A stretch of 38,311 nucleotides of DNA from Bacilli bacterium (lineage in GTDB: Bacteria; Bacillota_I; Bacilli_A; RFN20; CAG-826). A model generated the notes under the pieces. It had not been told where the DNA came from. It was given only the letters and a program-made list of their open reading frames with translations, and did not search any database. The stretch covers positions 1 to 38,311 of the forward strand of contig JAKSVE010000008.1 of assembly GCA_024408295.1 (NCBI GenBank), in the 5' to 3' direction. Positions 15,304 through 23,845 of this stretch are shown here, in pieces (the first letter of the stretch is position 1; each line of letters begins with the position of its first letter). The translations under genes were made by a program, and so were the position numbers.

Positions 15304-16605
15304 ATGATTGCAAAAACTACAAAAATAGGTGGCGTAGATAATTTGCTTTCGAAGCGTCCTGCTATCCCAGCTCCAATACCAGACTATGTCTATATTGCTG
15401 TTGAAAACGGCAGATGCGCAAAAGCAGACATCTATGTCAAAGAAGGCGACCATGTTAATCTCGGCCAGATGATTGGCATGAGACATGGACCATTCTTCGA
15501 CCAGCCCATCCACTCATCAGTAAGTGGCACCATGGTCAAAGTTGAAAAGCACTATCATCGTTGCGGTAAGCTCGTCAACTTCATGAAAATCGAGAATGAC
15601 CGTCTTGATACGCTTGATCCTTCAATCAAGGACAGAACACCGGAAGAAGTCGCTGCCATGACTAAGGAAGAGATGATTAAAATCATCGAAAATTGCGCTT
15701 GCGTTGGCTTAGGAGGATCAGGATTCCCTACCCACGTTAAGTTGCAGACAAAAGAAAAGATCAACTACATCTTGATCAACGGTATCGAATGCGAACCATA
15801 CCTTGATACCGACCAGAGATTCATGCTCGACAAGACAAAAGAGATCTTCGGCGGAACAAAGCTCTTAATGCAGATGTTCAATTGCAACGATGCAAGAATC
15901 TGCGTTAAGGAAACTCACCCAGAGATCATCAAGCACCTTAACGACATGATCGAAAAGTATTATCCAAACGAAGGCATCGTCGTCTCACCAATGAAGAACT
16001 TCTACCCTCAGGGTTGGGAAGTCGCAATGGTTAAGACAGCCCTCGGGATCAAGATGGCTCCTGGAAAGATTCCACCAGCATACGGAATCATGAACGTCAA
16101 CGTCACCACTGCTGCTCAGATCTATGACGCAATCTGGCACAACATGCCAGTCTACGAGAGATACATGTCAGTCAATGGCGATGGCATCAACGCTCCAAGT
16201 AACTTTGTTGTCCGTGTTGGAACTCCAGTCATCAACTTAGTCCACTTAGCAGGTGGCTATAAGGGAGACGAGAAGAAAGTTCTTATCTTCGGTGGACCTA
16301 TGATGGGCACCGCTCTTCCAAACGAAGACTGCATCGCAACAAAGACAGTCACATCTCTCATCGTCATGAACGAGAGCACAAAACCAGAGGCAGCTTGCAT
16401 TCGTTGCGGATCATGCGTCTTATCTTGCCCACAGGGACTTCAGCCAGTCCTCATCATGGAGGCAGTCAAGAGCGCAAACCGCGAAAGAGTCAAGATGCTC
16501 ACACCGCTCAATTGCATGGAATGCGGATTATGCACATACAGCTGCACATCAGGCATCCGTGTCACAGATTATGTAAGGAGGGCAAAGCTTTTAGCAAAGC
16601 TATAA
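15304..16605 (+). CDS. rnfC: Rnf complex subunit C (NADH-binding, Fe-S)
   Basis: Peripheral subunit of the ion-pumping ferredoxin:NAD+ oxidoreductase, with binding sites for NAD(H) and FMN. It has 433 residues. After the N-terminal domain come the glycine-rich loop GLGGSGFPTHVK (residues about 135-146), ECEPYLDTDQRFM, and a C-terminal ferredoxin module. The module has two complete cluster motifs, C365-x2-C368-x2-C371-x3-C375 and C404-x2-C407-x2-C410-x3-C414. It is the first gene of the order C-D-G-E-A-(small)-B. The ribosome site AGAGG lies 7 bases before the ATG and may be masked by the leader structure. Confidence 0.96.
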   Translation: MIAKTTKIGGVDNLLSKRPAIPAPIPDYVYIAVENGRCAKADIYVKEGDHVNLGQMIGMRHGPFFDQPIHSSVSGTMVKVEKHYHRCGKLVNFMKIENDRLDTLDPSIKDRTPEEVAAMTKEEMIKIIENCACVGLGGSGFPTHVKLQTKEKINYILINGIECEPYLDTDQRFMLDKTKEIFGGTKLLMQMFNCNDARICVKETHPEIIKHLNDMIEKYYPNEGIVVSPMKNFYPQGWEVAMVKTALGIKMAPGKIPPAYGIMNVNVTTAAQIYDAIWHNMPVYERYMSVNGDGINAPSNFVVRVGTPVINLVHLAGGYKGDEKKVLIFGGPMMGTALPNEDCIATKTVTSLIVMNESTKPEAACIRCGSCVLSCPQGLQPVLIMEAVKSANRERVKMLTPLNCMECGLCTYSCTSGIRVTDYVRRAKLLAKL

Positions 16606-16609
16606 TATT

Positions 16610-17656
16610 ATGCAGTTTGTTAAAGAAACATCTCCACACATCAGACGTAAGGATTCCTTGATGTGGATGCTCCTCAACGTAATCATCGCATTGTTACCAG
16701 TCGTCATTTGGGCCGCAGTTGCATATCCAATGCCAATGCTGCGCATCTACCCACTTGCACTTGTCACATGCGTATTATGTGAGTTCATATTCATTCTTAT
16801 CACCAAAAAGAGTGTTAAGGAATTCAAGATTGAAAACATCTTATCAGCCTTAATCACCGGTATGATCTATGCTCTTTGTCTTCCAACAGAGCTTGGATTT
16901 GCAAGCGGAACAGGCTACTTCGTCGTCGTTGCAGGCGCTGCAATCGGCATCATCTTAGGCAAATTGGTCTTCGGAGGTCTTGGAAACAACATCTTCAACC
17001 CAGCAGCCTTAGGCATGATCGTCGTCAGACTCTTCTGGGGTGGTATCTCAGGAAATTCAGCAGATCCTTCAATCTTCGTTGATCCATCAATCTCAGCGGG
17101 CGCTACATCACTTCAGACAGCACTCCCTGCAACAAACCTCTTAGACTTATTCTTAGGCAGAGTCCCTGGCGCATTAGGCGAAACATTCCACATCGCCATC
17201 TTAGTCGGCATGGTCTACTTGCTCATCACAAAGACAATCGACTGGAAGGTCTTGGTCTCATATCTCGGATCATTCATCGTCTTGACACTCGTCGCTGGAT
17301 TAATCCTCCAGATCAAGGGCGGAGACAATGTCTGTTATTATGCACTCTATCAGTTATTGTCAGGTGGCGTCTTATTCGGTGCTGTCTACATGATCACTGA
17401 CCCAGTCACAGGCCCAGTCGGCGATCCTGCACGTGTCTTATTCGGCGCATTCGCAGGCGTTATCACAGTTATCATCCGTTTATTCGCTGGAACAGAAGGC
17501 GTTGGATTCTCAATCCTCTTCGCTAACATGATTGCTCCAGCACTCAACTACCCACAGTGGTCATCATCAAGATGGAAAAAGTGGCACTACATCGCAGGAG
17601 GCGCACTCGCTGGTGTTGCTCTCTTAGCAGTCATCTTGCCACTTGCCCTTAAATAA
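16610..17656 (+). CDS. rnfD: Rnf complex subunit D (membrane flavoprotein)
   Basis: A 348-residue integral membrane protein with about nine or ten hydrophobic segments, homologous to NqrB. The likely covalent FMN site is Thr166 in SAGATS (162-167), matching the xGAT motif flavinylated by ApbE in RnfD/NqrB. GNNIFNPAALG (125-135) and ITDPVTGPVG near residue 260 are also family features. It starts 4 bases after rnfC with only a weak ribosome site. It should contribute to the ion path and carry electrons through the membrane together with RnfG. Confidence 0.95.
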   Translation: MQFVKETSPHIRRKDSLMWMLLNVIIALLPVVIWAAVAYPMPMLRIYPLALVTCVLCEFIFILITKKSVKEFKIENILSALITGMIYALCLPTELGFASGTGYFVVVAGAAIGIILGKLVFGGLGNNIFNPAALGMIVVRLFWGGISGNSADPSIFVDPSISAGATSLQTALPATNLLDLFLGRVPGALGETFHIAILVGMVYLLITKTIDWKVLVSYLGSFIVLTLVAGLILQIKGGDNVCYYALYQLLSGGVLFGAVYMITDPVTGPVGDPARVLFGAFAGVITVIIRLFAGTEGVGFSILFANMIAPALNYPQWSSSRWKKWHYIAGGALAGVALLAVILPLALK

Positions 17657-17668
17657 GGAGGATAGAAC

Positions 17669-19123
17669 ATGATTAAGAATATTTACTTAAGATGCGCTCT
17701 CGTCCTTAGCTGTATCTGCGTTGGATCAGCTGTCTTAATCGGCGGACTCCACACAGCTACCGACTACTATAAGGAAACCCACAAATCAACAGAAGCTCCA
17801 GCAGAAATCCAGAGCTTGAAGCCAGGAGCAACATTCGAGGAAGTCGCTGACTTCAGCCCAATTTCCTCAACAGAAAGCTCAACAAAAGTCACAATCACTG
17901 CAGTTTACGCATTAAAAGAAGGCGGCCAGACAACTGGTTACGCATATAAGCTCAACTGCTCAAAGCCAGTTAAGACAGACGTTGAGTTCACAGTCTTATT
18001 CGAAGGCCCAGCTCAGGCAGCAAACATCAACGCAGTCAAGCCAAGCAACATCAACATCATGGTCGGAGGCGACTCTGGTTATGATGGCAACATCATCAAA
18101 CTTGCAGATGGTATCGTCGAAGGCTCAGCAACCGCAAACGACTATAGCTCAGTCGTCTCAGGCGGCACTAAGTCACAGAAGTTCTTCATCGACGGTGTTC
18201 AGGCTGCTAGAAAAGATTATGTCGCAAGAATCAACGGACAGACAGGCGGACCAACAGTCGAAAAGACACCAATCGAAAAGATCTACGGCGACCTCTACAA
18301 ATCAAATGTCGAGGACGAATTCACCGCAATCAAGGGCGATACAACCCACTGCTCATACGAAATCACCAACCGTTACACAGTTACCCTTACTGATTCAACA
18401 GTCACTAAGGCATACGCTGGTACAACTTCATTCCAAGATCCAGAAGGCGAGACTGATGTTGTTAAGATCGTCGCTGCATTCAGCGGAGACAAGGCAAGCG
18501 TCAAGCTCGACGGATACAGTGTCACAAAGGATATCTCTTGGAATGATTACAAGAGCTACCTCGATGGTGTGTCAAAGGGCACAACAAGCTTAGAAGATGA
18601 GAACGCTGTCCACACAGGATCAACTCTCTCAACAAACGCTATCCGTGACTTAATCATCGGAATGCGTGCAGATTACATCGCAAACTACAAAACCGTCCTC
18701 GAAGAGATGTATGGAACAAGCTATGTCTCTGAATCAGTTGACGAGTATGCAGCAGTTAAGGGCGATACATCACATTGCTCATATGAACTCACAAAGCGTT
18801 ACTCAGTCGAATTAAGCGACGGCACCACCGGAAAGGCATATGAAGCCACCACTTCATTCAAAGACCCAGAAGGTGAAACCGATGTCATCAAGCTCATCGC
18901 TGCTTGGAGCGGAGATGCGGCTAATGCAAAGCTTGTCGGCTACAAACTCACAAAGAACATCTCTTGGGACGATTACAAGGGATATATCTCAAATGTCGCA
19001 TCAGGAACAACAAGCTTAGAAGACGAAAGCGCAGTCCACACAGGATCAACTCTCTCAACTAACGCAATCCGCGACTTACTCTTGGCTATGCGTACAGATT
19101 ACATAGCATCCAAGAATGCATAA
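17669..19123 (+). CDS. rnfG: Rnf complex subunit G, enlarged, with three FMN-binding-like domains
   Basis: RnfG normally has one covalently bound FMN facing outside and is about 180-220 residues long; this one has 484. A single N-terminal helix (about 8-28) anchors it. Three successive extracytoplasmic units follow, each ending in a candidate flavin-attachment motif: SGGTKS at 164-169 in a diverged first domain, HTGSTLST at 315-322, and HTGSTLST at 457-464. Units two and three (206-342 and 348-484) are tandem copies with a 142-residue offset. The usual motif is SGAT, so TGST is a conservative variant, with Thr as the expected attachment residue. AAGGAGG precedes the ATG. The assignment as RnfG is secure from position and motifs; triple flavinylation is inferred. 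Confidence 0.9.
   Translation: MIKNIYLRCALVLSCICVGSAVLIGGLHTATDYYKETHKSTEAPAEIQSLKPGATFEEVADFSPISSTESSTKVTITAVYALKEGGQTTGYAYKLNCSKPVKTDVEFTVLFEGPAQAANINAVKPSNINIMVGGDSGYDGNIIKLADGIVEGSATANDYSSVVSGGTKSQKFFIDGVQAARKDYVARINGQTGGPTVEKTPIEKIYGDLYKSNVEDEFTAIKGDTTHCSYEITNRYTVTLTDSTVTKAYAGTTSFQDPEGETDVVKIVAAFSGDKASVKLDGYSVTKDISWNDYKSYLDGVSKGTTSLEDENAVHTGSTLSTNAIRDLIIGMRADYIANYKTVLEEMYGTSYVSESVDEYAAVKGDTSHCSYELTKRYSVELSDGTTGKAYEATTSFKDPEGETDVIKLIAAWSGDAANAKLVGYKLTKNISWDDYKGYISNVASGTTSLEDESAVHTGSTLSTNAIRDLLLAMRTDYIASKNA
18284..19120 (+). repeat. Tandem intragenic duplication in rnfG
   Basis: Two units, 18284-18694 and 18710-19120, are offset by 426 bases. The proteins agree closely (shared KGDT-HCSYE, TTSF-DPEGETDV, GTTSLEDE-AVHTGSTLSTNAIRDL), and parts are nearly identical at base level around the FMN motif. 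This implies a relatively recent in-frame duplication or ongoing homogenisation. Confidence 0.9.
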
Positions 19124-19135
19124 GGAGGGACGATT

Positions 19136-19849
19136 ATGGATCAGAAACCAAGCAAATTAAGAGTCTTCTTAGACCCTCTCTTCAAAGCCAACCCATTATT
19201 CGTTATGGTTCTTGGCACTTGCCCTGCTTTAGCGGTCACAACATCATTTGAGTCCGCAATCGGCATGGGAATCCTCTTCACATTCGTCATCTTCTTCTCA
19301 AATCTCATCATCTCTCTTCTCCGCAAGATCATTCCTGATGAGATCAGAACACCTTGCTACATCGTTGTCATCGCAACATTCGTCACAGTAGTCAAGCTTC
19401 TCTCTTCAACCTTCCTCCCTGAACTTTATAGCTCACTCGGCGTCTTTGTCTCATTGCTCGTCGTCAACTGTATCGTCTTAGGTAGAGCTGAGGCATTCGC
19501 TAGCCAGAACACGGTGGTCGATTCCATGTTAGATGGTCTCGGAAACGGCGTTGGCTACACATGGGCAATTGCCGCAATCGCTCTTGTCCGTGAAGTCCTC
19601 GGTGCAGGAACTCTTACATTCGGAAAAGTCTTCACCTTCATCCCTAAGGTCACATTGCCAATCCTTTCTGGATACACAGGCTCAGACTTCTCACTTGCTA
19701 TGCCACTCTTCAAGTCATCAGCAGGCGGCTTCCTCGTCTTAGGTTTTGCTTTAGCAATCATTGCAGCAATCAACAACTACAAAGACAAGAAGGCAAAAGA
19801 AAAGGCTAGAGCTGAAAGAGCAGCAGCCGCTAAAGGAGGAAATAACTAA
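19136..19849 (+). CDS. rnfE: Rnf complex subunit E
   Basis: A 237-residue membrane protein with six predicted helices, homologous to NqrD. The two conserved cysteine-bearing membrane loops are present: GTCPALA (27-33) and VNCIVLGRAEAFA (about 110-122). In Rnf/Nqr the RnfA-RnfE pair shares a [2Fe-2S] centre held by such cysteines in the middle of the membrane. The C-terminal 20 residues are Lys/Ala-rich and cytoplasmic. AAGGAGGGACG precedes the ATG, and the stop codon overlaps the start of rnfA. Confidence 0.95.
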   Translation: MDQKPSKLRVFLDPLFKANPLFVMVLGTCPALAVTTSFESAIGMGILFTFVIFFSNLIISLLRKIIPDEIRTPCYIVVIATFVTVVKLLSSTFLPELYSSLGVFVSLLVVNCIVLGRAEAFASQNTVVDSMLDGLGNGVGYTWAIAAIALVREVLGAGTLTFGKVFTFIPKVTLPILSGYTGSDFSLAMPLFKSSAGGFLVLGFALAIIAAINNYKDKKAKEKARAERAAAAKGGNN

Positions 19850-20451
19850 TGCAGTACATAGTTTCATTCATTCTCGCTATCGTCTCCTACATGGTCATCG
19901 ATAACGTCATCCTCTCAAGATATTTCGGTATCTGCTCATTCATTGGAGTCGGCAACAAGATCAAATCTGCTCTCGGCATGGGTCTTGCAGTCACAGCAGT
20001 CACGCTCATTGCAGCACTTGTCTGCTGGCCACTCTACAACTTCATCCTTGTTCCAGCAAACATGGAATACATGGAGACAATCGTCTTCATCCTCGTCATC
20101 GCATCACTTGTTCAGATGGTCGGATTCTTCATTAAGAAGAAGTCGATCAGCCTTTATAAGACACTTGGCATCTACCTTCCATTAATCACAACAAACTGCG
20201 CAGTACTCGGCGTTGTTGAAAACAACATGGCATACGACTTCGGTCGTTCAATGGCAAACGCATTAGGAACTTCACTCGGATTCATCCTCGTCATCTTCCT
20301 CTTCGCTTGCATCAGAATCAGACTTGAGGGTTCAAATCTTCCTAAGGCCTTCAAGGGCGTGCCAATTGCGCTTATCGTCGCAGGACTCATGGCTATCGTC
20401 TTCATGGGACTCGGAGGCATTGTTGACCTCGGTTCATGGGGGCTCATCTAA
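19849..20451 (+). CDS. rnfA: Rnf complex subunit A
   Basis: A 200-residue, six-helix membrane protein, homologous to NqrE. It carries the paired cysteine loops DNVILSRYFGICSFIGVG (near 20-38) and TTNCAVLGVVENN (near 119-132), which with RnfE hold the intramembrane [2Fe-2S] centre. It overlaps rnfE (TAATG) and in turn overlaps the small cysteine protein by one base (TAATG), indicating coupled translation through this part of the operon. Confidence 0.95.
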   Translation: MQYIVSFILAIVSYMVIDNVILSRYFGICSFIGVGNKIKSALGMGLAVTAVTLIAALVCWPLYNFILVPANMEYMETIVFILVIASLVQMVGFFIKKKSISLYKTLGIYLPLITTNCAVLGVVENNMAYDFGRSMANALGTSLGFILVIFLFACIRIRLEGSNLPKAFKGVPIALIVAGLMAIVFMGLGGIVDLGSWGLI

Positions 20452-20684
20452 TGGGCACTGTCGGTTACGTGGTAATCGCAATAGCAATAATCGTAGTTTT
20501 AGTAGCTCTCTTCACAATCAGCTTCGTTGCTTATGTTAAAACACCGGCACCTGCTGGATGTGAAGCGGGCAAGGGCCCTAACTGCGAGAATTGCGAAGTC
20601 GTTAGTTGTAGGTTCTACGCTAGCGCAGAAGAAAGGGAAAGAAAAAAACGCCAAGAAGCAAATTCTGGCGAGAAAGGAAACTAA
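20451..20684 (+). CDS. Small membrane protein with four clustered cysteines, inserted in the rnf operon
   Basis: I start this at the ATG overlapping the rnfA stop (77 residues); an in-frame ATG 15 bases upstream lies inside rnfA. Residues about 4-27 form one hydrophobic helix. A short loop with the pattern C-x7-C-x2-C-x4-C (CEAGKGPNCENCEVVSC) follows, then a strongly charged tail (E/R/K). The design resembles FeoB-associated cysteine-rich membrane proteins, and four close cysteines could hold a metal or Fe-S centre. I do not recognise it as a standard Rnf subunit. Coupling to rnfA and its place directly before rnfB argue for a role in the complex or in cluster delivery; that is inference. Confidence 0.8.
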   Translation: MGTVGYVVIAIAIIVVLVALFTISFVAYVKTPAPAGCEAGKGPNCENCEVVSCRFYASAEERERKKRQEANSGEKGN

Positions 20685-20687
20685 TAT

Positions 20688-21005
20688 ATGGATATCTTAT
20701 GGGCAGCCTTGCTTATGCTAGGCTTAGCAATCGGATTATCATGCCTTATCGTTTTGTTCTCAATCGTCTTCCACGTTGAAGAGGACCCAAGAATCGACTG
20801 TGTTTCCAAAATGCTTCCTGGAGTCAATTGCGGCGCTTGCGGATATGCAGGCTGCCACGACTTAGCGGATGCGTTGGTTAACGGAGAGGTCAAGAAAGTC
20901 ACAGCTTGCAAGGCTGGACGTAGAGACAAGAACTTCGATCCAATTGTCGAATATCTCAAAACTACACCTGGACCTAACGGCACAACAGTTGAAGTTACAC
21001 TTTAA
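20688..21005 (+). CDS. rnfB: Minimal Rnf complex subunit B lacking ferredoxin domains
   Basis: RnfB accepts electrons from ferredoxin and usually has about 180-300 residues: a membrane helix, a four-cysteine Fe-S domain, and two or more ferredoxin-like clusters. Here there are only 105 residues: helix (about 4-29), then VNCGACGYAGC with C48-x2-C51-x4-C56 and C74, then a short tail. The polyferredoxin part is missing. The stop is followed at once by a good terminator, and no ferredoxin-like CxxCxxC sequence occurs in any frame downstream, so this is not a simple frameshift. AAAGGAAA precedes the ATG. Identity as an RnfB N-terminal domain is strong; how ferredoxin docks is open. Confidence 0.88.
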   Translation: MDILWAALLMLGLAIGLSCLIVLFSIVFHVEEDPRIDCVSKMLPGVNCGACGYAGCHDLADALVNGEVKKVTACKAGRRDKNFDPIVEYLKTTPGPNGTTVEVTL

Positions 21006-21036: not shown

Positions 21037-21063
21037 AACCCTCTAATGGATTATCATATACGC

Positions 21064-22071
21064 ATGAAAAAGAGATTAGGTCTATTGTTATTGCTCCCAC
21101 TGCTTGTATCATGCAGCGAAACTAGATACAGCGGTTCAGTCCTTGCGTTCCACAGCTTTTTCTCATGGAAATACGTCTCAGGAAAAGACTGTGGCAAGGA
21201 AATATACGATTTAGCAAACAAGATAGACACTTTAGCGGACCCATACACAAACTATGGAGACGCCAACACCTTATACAAAATCAATTCAACTCATGAAGCG
21301 ATTGAGGTTGATCCAATCCTCTTCGATTTGATGAAGACTGCGCTTGATTTATACGCTAAGACAGAACATAACTTCGATCCATATATCGGCAAGATAACTT
21401 CGTTATGGAAAACAACCCTATTTGGGGCGGATGACGACTTCTTGTTCGAAGGTCCAAGCAATTCCTCAATTGAGGAGGCTAAAGCCCTCATACCGGCTCT
21501 TTTAGAGGAAGCTAGAGCTACTTCAGTTGAATTGGATGAGAACAAGATGACGATCAAGCGGATTGGAGACGGTCATATCGATTTAGGCGGCCTAACAAAA
21601 GGTTATGCGGTTGAAGAAGCAGAAAAGATCCTCCACTCCAACAAAGTCAGCAAATACCTAGTCAATGGAGGACAAAGCTCACTTGGCTTAGGGAAGACAC
21701 TTGATGGCAAAAACTACAAAGTCGATTTGATGTATAGCAAAGTCGAAAAGGAAAACACATTCGAATTAAGCGAAATAGACACATCCACCTCTGGAGTCTA
21801 TGAGCAGTGTGTCACGATTGATGGGAAGATGTATTCACACATCATCAACCCAAACACCGGAATGCCTCTGACGGATTATTCAATGGCGTTCCTTGTTGGG
21901 GAAGATAGTGCGCTACTAGACGCATTCTCAACATCCTGTATGATTGCAGGGCCAGAAAAATCAGAAGAATGGTCGAAGAAATACAATTTCATGTATTCTT
22001 TATACGAAGATGATGGAGGATACACAAAGTTTGTGTCCGAATCAGAAGAGCTAACCAAGACTAGAATCTAA
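21064..22071 (+). CDS. apbE: FAD:protein FMN transferase, lipoprotein
   Basis: ApbE links FMN from FAD to Thr in SGAT-like motifs of RnfG, RnfD and similar proteins. I choose the ATG at 21064 (335 residues) because it gives a compact lipoprotein signal with lipobox LLVSC (Cys17); an in-frame ATG 18 bases upstream adds DYHIR before it, and neither has a good ribosome site. Family motifs are IDLGGLTKGYAV (172-183), VNGGQSS (200-206), TSGVYEQ (242-248), HIINPNTG (259-266) and an Asp at 286 near the metal site. Being anchored outside the membrane puts it where the RnfG domains are. Its stop overlaps the next start (TAATG). Confidence 0.94.
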   Translation: MKKRLGLLLLLPLLVSCSETRYSGSVLAFHSFFSWKYVSGKDCGKEIYDLANKIDTLADPYTNYGDANTLYKINSTHEAIEVDPILFDLMKTALDLYAKTEHNFDPYIGKITSLWKTTLFGADDDFLFEGPSNSSIEEAKALIPALLEEARATSVELDENKMTIKRIGDGHIDLGGLTKGYAVEEAEKILHSNKVSKYLVNGGQSSLGLGKTLDGKNYKVDLMYSKVEKENTFELSEIDTSTSGVYEQCVTIDGKMYSHIINPNTGMPLTDYSMAFLVGEDSALLDAFSTSCMIAGPEKSEEWSKKYNFMYSLYEDDGGYTKFVSESEELTKTRI

Positions 22072-23131: not shown

Positions 23132-23845
23132 TTACTTAGCGTTTGCTTCAGCAGCTGTTAAGACAGCGATGTATGAGAGATATCCATCAGCGATCTTGTT
23201 GAAGTCTGTCCATGTTGATCCTGTTGAGACACCATCAACTGTCCAGTACTTCTTGCCTGCTTCGTCTTCAACCTGAGTTGCTGCTAAGCACTTTTCTGAT
23301 CCGTACTTAACATATGCATCAACAGTTGCGTCACGGTTTGACTTCCAGTTGAATCTTTCTCCGCCATAACCGTTCTCGTCCTTGCTTAATGCAGCCTTTG
23401 TCATGATTGTCTTATCGCCACATGCTGCGACGTCGTTTGCCATGACTGCCTTGTAGTAAGCTGAGCAGACTTCTGCCTTTGACCAGTCAGCACCTTCGTA
23501 TGAGAGAGCGCCGTCCTTAACTGTTGCTGTTAAGGTGTATGAGCCGAACTTGACTTCCTTGTAGTAAGAAACTTCCTTTTCTGCTCCATGGTCCATGATT
23601 GTTCCAGTGACCTTCTTTTCTGCATCGACTGCTTCGTCAGCTGTGATGTATGAAGGGAGGCAGACTTCTCCGAGTGTAGCTGCGGTGACCTTGCCGCCTT
23701 CAACTGTGACTGTCGCACCAGCAACGTAAGAACCACCGTGGCAGAGAGCGTATGCTTCGCCTGTCTTAGCGCCATTTGCACCACCGCATGAAGCGAGTAA
23801 TGTAGCTGCGCCAAGGATCATCATGAGTTTGTTTGTGTTTTTCAT
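23132..23845 (-). CDS. Lipoprotein with possible FMN-binding domain
   Basis: A 237-residue lipoprotein with signal and lipobox LLASC (Cys20). The segment GATVTVEGGKVTAATLG (about 43-59) has the 'V-x-V-x-G-G-K-(I/V)-T' look that opens FMN_bind domains. Near the end, VSTGSTWTDF (206-215) followed by a helix ending SYIAVL resembles the FMN-attachment region of the RnfG repeats (HTGSTLSTNAIRDL). Thr211 would be the attachment residue. Five cysteines (C35, C62, C127, C142, C186) are also present. It is convergent with the rnf/apbE block. A flavinylated electron-transfer lipoprotein, like Listeria PplA in principle, is a plausible reading; the alternative is an unrelated surface protein. AAGGGG precedes the ATG. 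Confidence 0.75.
   Translation of the reverse strand: MKNTNKLMMILGAATLLASCGGANGAKTGEAYALCHGGSYVAGATVTVEGGKVTAATLGEVCLPSYITADEAVDAEKKVTGTIMDHGAEKEVSYYKEVKFGSYTLTATVKDGALSYEGADWSKAEVCSAYYKAVMANDVAACGDKTIMTKAALSKDENGYGGERFNWKSNRDATVDAYVKYGSEKCLAATQVEDEAGKKYWTVDGVSTGSTWTDFNKIADGYLSYIAVLTAAEANAK

Follow-up and report, generated by a model that had tools for sequence, protein, structure and literature searches.

The rnf cluster and its genes

The window, by which we mean the whole stretch of 38,311 nucleotides analysed here, carries an rnf cluster whose genes all lie on the forward strand, in the order rnfC-rnfD-rnfG-rnfE-rnfA-(small transmembrane protein)-rnfB-apbE-(NusG domain II protein)-(heptaprenyl diphosphate synthase component I / ECF-like protein). 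A lipoprotein gene convergent to the cluster lies beyond it. Besides rnfG, the features considered are as follows.

15304..16605, + strand: rnfC, 433 aa, NADH-binding domain and two 4Fe-4S sites (TIGR01945, 339 bits over cut-off; two CxxCxxCxxxC clusters)
16610..17656, + strand: rnfD, 348 aa, SAGATSL where RnfD has its flavinylation motif (PF03116, 2.3e-73; sequence)
19136..19849, + strand: rnfE, 237 aa (PF02508, 5.7e-59)
19849..20451, + strand: rnfA, 200 aa (PF02508, 3e-50)
20436..20684, + strand: small protein, 82 aa, one transmembrane helix and four Cys (CEAGKGPNCENCEVVSC); found between rnfA and rnfB, with four Cys, in 20 of 22 loci
20688..21005, + strand: rnfB, minimal, 105 aa, transmembrane helix and one FeS domain (PF04060, 5.2e-12)
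21046..22071, + strand: apbE, flavin transferase, 341 aa, lipobox LVSC (PF02424, 4.7e-46; TSGVYE, HIINPNTG and D-A-x-x-T motifs)
23132..23845, - strand: lipoprotein, 237 aa, with DGVSTGSTWTD; candidate partner (co-occurrence with the RnfG type)

In the core of the complex, the NADH site and 4Fe-4S sites of RnfC, the cysteines of RnfA and RnfE and the flavin site of RnfD are all intact. RnfB is reduced: rnfB models match it over only about their first 80-90 positions, and it lacks the C-terminal domain, with at least two 4Fe-4S clusters, that RnfB has in a canonical ferredoxin:NAD+ Rnf. The same minimal form (about 105 aa, a transmembrane helix and one FeS domain) occurs throughout the order in the relatives examined. 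Since the C-terminal RnfB domain normally takes electrons from ferredoxin (PMC12174285), its loss from the protein sequence makes ferredoxin use by this Rnf, and with it the link to ferredoxin metabolism drawn in the initial annotation, uncertain.

The slot between rnfA and rnfB (20436-20684 in the window; L032-L069) is occupied across the order by a protein of 60-106 aa with one transmembrane helix and four cysteines, patterned GCE...C..C....C in the genus and in variant forms elsewhere. It has no NCBIfam match and only a sub-threshold Pfam match. In layout we take it to resemble NqrM, which matures the intramembrane [2Fe-2S] cluster of NQR; the protein could possibly be an NqrM-like maturation factor or an FeS subunit, and may represent a new Rnf accessory protein.

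The flavin transferase ApbE, initially described as encoded nearby, is indeed part of the same cluster. Within the genus it is confined to rnf-bearing genomes, with one copy each; a few rnf-bearing genomes with broken contigs lack it, and in one it is split over two contigs.

Three RnfG-type units on a single membrane anchor

Between rnfD and rnfE, an uninterrupted open reading frame on the forward strand, with many stops on the complementary strand, encodes the 484-aa protein that is our main subject. The initial annotation had identified this frame as rnfG, a reading borne out by the open reading frame, position, profile and fold.

17669..19123, + strand: rnfG, one transmembrane helix and three RnfG-type units, 484 aa (sequence, hhalign, AlphaFold)
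17678..17779, + strand: N-terminal membrane helix, residues 4-37 (AlphaFold helix H4-37; aligns with the transmembrane helix of single-domain RnfGs)
17789..18256, + strand: unit D1, canonical RnfG domain, about residues 41-196 (hhalign 97.9% against single-domain RnfGs; 9eri_G probability 1.00)
18158..18175, + strand: SGGTKS in D1, candidate acceptor T167 at 18167-18169 (SGGT invariant in 4 orthologues)
18257..18682, + strand: unit D2, about residues 197-338 (426-nt repeat with D3; hhalign to RnfGs)
18611..18634, + strand: HTGSTLST in D2, candidate acceptor T319 at 18623-18625 (T319 and G317 invariant in 4 orthologues; helix 319-338 starts with T319)
18683..19120, + strand: unit D3, about residues 339-484 (426-nt repeat, hhalign; AlphaFold pLDDT 94.1)
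19037..19060, + strand: HTGSTLST in D3, candidate acceptor T461 at 19049-19051 (T461 and G459 invariant in 4 orthologues; start of the last helix)

A frameshift or an assembly artefact as the origin of the three-unit protein was rejected, three other MAGs having the identical architecture. A scan of genome contigs returned the three known orthologues and one weak match only; the first 40 relatives searched, a set that excluded the three orthologous genomes, gave no match, nor did a viral collection. All three units are under similar constraint, with NG86 dN/dS of about 0.10-0.15 as measured against one orthologue at a dS near saturation.

Its place in an apbE-containing rnf operon, its profile and its fold all mark the protein as an RnfG: a transmembrane helix is followed by an extracytosolic part with the RnfG sequence profile. 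Single-domain RnfGs from the genus and from the order align with the whole of D1 (97.9% probability in hhalign). D2 and D3 form a direct repeat with a step of 426 nt and 76-78% DNA identity; D1 is more distant from them, yet homologous (hhalign). Against RnfGs, the D2/D3 profile scores 47-48 in hhalign over about 125 columns with motif on motif, and against independent RnfGs of other families it scores 47.0 over 125 columns, the motif again aligned; the top score of 50 column-shuffled profiles was 18.1. The repeat-unit profile also matches domain 1 of CbFMN4 (8p2b). The solved RnfG 7zc6_G is matched by the A4 profile at 7.6e-8 and by a profile of reference RnfGs at 2.2e-21. Profile comparison shows all three units to be homologous to the RnfG extracytosolic domain. 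The window protein would owe its length to tandem duplication of this domain, with all three units borne by a single membrane anchor.

Standard single-sequence scans do not reveal this. Neither Pfam FMN_bind (PF04205) nor NCBIfam rnfG matches any unit of the window RnfG, and phmmer with the single sequence against the PDB returned only chance matches (dihydrofolate reductase). Among 19 reference RnfGs, NCBIfam rnfG recognises 18 and Pfam FMN_bind 9 at a loose threshold; FMN_bind profiles miss nearly all RnfGs of the genus. By a count of Pfam FMN_bind domains the window RnfG would not qualify as multi-flavinylated, although by homology to the FMN-binding domain it has more than one unit with a correctly placed acceptor Thr. 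The three FMN-binding-like domains initially proposed hold as three units homologous to the RnfG domain, but not as matches to the Pfam family.

The AlphaFold model of the full-length protein (10-sequence alignment) has a mean pLDDT of 81.9, but it leaves uncertain how the units are arranged relative to one another (pTM 0.52); D3 modelled alone reaches a pLDDT of 94.1. Six strands and two helices follow one another in the same order in D2 and D3; D1 shares this order but has a short helix in addition. The final helix of each unit starts at residue 167, 319 or 462, so that the candidate Thr stands at or adjoining the first helix residue and caps the helix. In Foldseek the full model matches the Acetobacterium woodii RnfG 9eri_G with a probability of 1.00 and a weak E-value, owing to the multi-unit chain; otherwise the search with the whole model mixed the units and yielded mostly noise. 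With D3 alone, no RnfG or FMN_bind entry was among the 50 best matches, which comprised NTF2-like and other sheets with a TM of at most about 0.35. In the structural check suggested along with the initial annotation, the units share one order of elements, and Foldseek did not place D3 beside FMN_bind structures. The fold of D3 is therefore assigned from its profile homology and from the order of its elements instead of from Foldseek, and on the same grounds D2 and D3 are provisionally taken as RnfG-like in fold.

Candidate flavinylation sites

The motifs initially noted, SGGTKS at residues 164-169 and HTGSTLST at 315-322 and 457-464, are exactly placed. The acceptor in motifs of the [ST]G[AGS][ST] type is the fourth residue, which makes T167, T319 and T461 the candidates; of the acceptors first suggested, T167 stands, but residues 318 and 460 are both Ser. 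The three motifs lie at equivalent places in three homologous units. Shuffled versions of the protein contain 0.45 motifs on average, and three motifs exceed chance because only about 1% of shuffles reach at least three, even before position is counted. Chance or composition as the source of the motifs and of the unit matches is rejected by the shuffles.

These tests bear on the idea that the units are not redox domains, and that the motifs arose by chance on a repeated surface protein that replaced rnfG. It could appeal to the failure of Pfam FMN_bind and to the fact that D2 and D3 could be any surface repeat. It is hard to reconcile with D1, which matches solved RnfG in profile and fold, with D2/D3 scores against RnfG profiles far above those of shuffles, and with the rarity of three motifs in shuffled sequences. 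The profile tests largely refute it, and we consider it highly improbable.

All three sites depart from the consensus. The strict [ST]GA[ST] is absent from the whole window RnfG and none of the sites fits D-x-x-[ST]-G-A-[ST], the Asp being out of place and the Ala replaced by Gly or Ser; SGGT or TGST stands in place of GAT, and the Thr is present and invariant. The flavin-pocket motif of classical RnfG, eTPGLG, is replaced by GGDSGYD in D1, DISWNDY in D2 and NISWDDY in D3. In motif mutagenesis, Thr was essential, Asp nearly dispensable, and Gly/Ala changes only halved flavinylation (PMC12052999). T167, T319 and T461, together with the Gly two residues before each, are invariant in four orthologues (60-70% identity), among which the neighbouring motif positions drift: SGGT in D1, TGST or AGGT in D2, TGST or TGAT in D3. 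The D1 motif keeps its first G and its T in every RnfG of the alignment. ApbE, whose gene belongs to the cluster and is present once per genome, likely attaches FMN to T167, T319 and T461, and we infer three FMNs on the window RnfG.

RnfG length series in the genus and order

The genus was surveyed in 37 genomes, 29 of which have rnfD, and RnfG lengths were taken from the sequences and from the rnfD-rnfE distance. Among the 29, RnfG is about 180 aa long in 10 genomes, about 330 aa with two units in 4, and about 490 aa with three units in 7, whereas 5 have an RnfG of about 1000-1150 aa built of seven or eight repeat units; the remaining 3 were not measurable and stand outside the count. In the seven- or eight-unit proteins, profile comparison supports the first units well as RnfG-like but not the last ones. 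The long forms occupy no fewer than three separate positions in a tree built from RnfC, D, E and A, in which some deep branches of the genus are weakly supported. One is the window's clade, with four genomes; another is the G016/G014/G049 clade, which lies within a group of genomes with one unit; and a third clade contains the two-unit and the seven- or eight-unit RnfGs. The tree points to at least three independent expansions of RnfG within one genus.

Outside the window's clade, the acceptor motif is lost in most extra units (SAGASYA, SGVNQAA, or nothing), namely in most of units 2-3 in G016, G014 and G049 and of the later units of the seven- or eight-unit RnfGs. The number of units cannot therefore be read as the number of flavins, and the pattern suggests that extra RnfG units can be kept without covalent FMN.

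FMN might accordingly be carried by unit 1 only, or by unit 1 and one other, units 2-3 serving, as RnfG-type copies, as spacers or docking modules to position the shuttle or to hold the complex at the cell surface. The motif losses elsewhere in the genus speak for such an arrangement, as do, in the window itself, the off-consensus form of all three sites, the vanished pocket motif and the absence of FMN_bind structures among the matches of D3. Against it, the G and T of units 2-3 are invariant in the four genomes of the window's clade, where three keep TGST(L/Y)ST in both units and the fourth has TGAT in unit 3. We regard this arrangement as somewhat unlikely, and flavinylation of all three units as the preferred reading.

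Two further observations concern length variation. In loci L035, L036, L037, L038 and L056, RnfG reaches about 1000-1150 aa with 7 or 8 repeat units and an acceptor motif that decays toward the C-terminus; Pfam sCache_3_3 matches five members of the alignment containing these proteins. Elsewhere in the order, in other families, the long C-terminal extension is found on RnfD (L063:2005-4251, + strand; L062:3474-6464, - strand; L048:7901-9844, + strand), which in G029 comprises a surface Ig-like domain and FMN_bind (PF04205, 2e-5) and in G057 several TGAT/TGAS motifs.

The neighbouring lipoprotein

The lipoprotein gene adjoins rnf in exactly the four genomes with the window-type RnfG and is absent from the other 33 of the genus; because these four genomes form one clade, the co-occurrence counts as a single correlated event. 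The lipoprotein has no profile match to FMN_bind or RnfG. Its assignment as an FMN_bind protein is therefore unsupported by profiles, favoured only by the DGVSTGSTWTD motif and the co-occurrence, and it is a candidate electron acceptor.

Flavins on units 2-3 might instead store or buffer electrons within the Rnf cycle, with no outlet to the outside. Consistent with a store, the neighbouring genes in the window include no recognised terminal reductase, and the lipoprotein is only a putative flavin protein. However, a chain added distal to the membrane anchor would serve for relay no less well than for storage, and the motif-bearing lipoprotein accompanies exactly this RnfG type, if only as one event in four genomes of one clade. 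Storage seems quite unlikely to us.

Discussion

Based on the evidence presented here, we propose that the window encodes a three-unit RnfG with FMN placed on all three units by ApbE, D1 acting as the shuttle and D2-D3 as an outward relay; taken as a whole, we give this scheme an even chance of being correct. D1 would perform the normal RnfG role, carrying electrons between the [2Fe-2S] cluster of RnfA/E and RnfD. D2 and D3 might then accept electrons from D1 and relay them outward to an extracytosolic acceptor, for which the neighbouring lipoprotein is a candidate. As the classical RnfB ferredoxin module is missing, NADH via RnfC, or ferredoxin docking on the small RnfB domain, would be a likelier electron source than such a module. 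In a broader reading, the Rnf of the genus, whose members are gut Bacilli with small genomes, would no longer work as a ferredoxin:NAD+ pump but would export electrons outward, a change comprising the loss of the RnfB ferredoxin module, the repeated extension of RnfG into flavin chains that differ in length, the flavin-type domains on RnfD in other families of the order and the clade-specific flavinylated lipoprotein acceptors; jointly, these elements make an unlikely combination in our estimation.

If the extra units carry FMN, an extracytosolic flavin wire would be joined to Rnf in uncultured gut Bacilli and provide fermenters with an electron outlet. With the series found in the genus (1, 2, 3 or about 7-8 units, with or without the acceptor Thr), an effect of the number of units on electron transfer out of Rnf could be told apart from one of the number of flavins. 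Surveys built on Pfam FMN_bind overlook such RnfGs.

The idea of a multi-flavinylated RnfG with an outward role is not new, since RnfGs with more than one FMN-binding domain were described earlier in Rnf clusters, and a second electron route to extracytosolic acceptors was proposed for them (Meheust et al. 2021, PMC8238504, Fig. 6C and H). The count of those proteins relied on FMN_bind profiles; the duplicated unit of the window protein is of the RnfG type, with non-canonical motifs, and there is no haem domain. The RnfGs of Clostridium tetanomorphum (7zc6) and Acetobacterium woodii (9eri) share the transmembrane helix and extracytosolic domain and correspond to D1, but consist of a single domain rather than three units; moreover, 7zc6_G has TGAT and eTPGLG where the window RnfG has SGGT or TGST and lacks eTPGLG. 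SaFMN3 and CbFMN4 likewise consist of tandem units, each with a flavinylation site, and the three-FMN protein SaFMN3 has been made and its full flavinylation confirmed by mass; in contrast to the window protein, they are not Rnf subunits, and their small FMN-binding units have the canonical motif (PMC10339131). In Methanosarcina, an extracytosolic electron conduit is also added to an Rnf core, but as a separate haem protein, the multihaem cytochrome MmcA (PMC12174285), instead of extra flavin-type units on RnfG. What is new here is the occurrence of RnfG-type tandem units with non-canonical motifs missed by FMN_bind profiles, and the repeated expansion of RnfG in one genus, where it has 1, 2, 3 or about 7-8 units, combined with decay of acceptor sites; to these are added the reduction of RnfB to its small FeS domain and, beside rnf in the window's clade alone, a lipoprotein whose motif resembles a flavinylation site.
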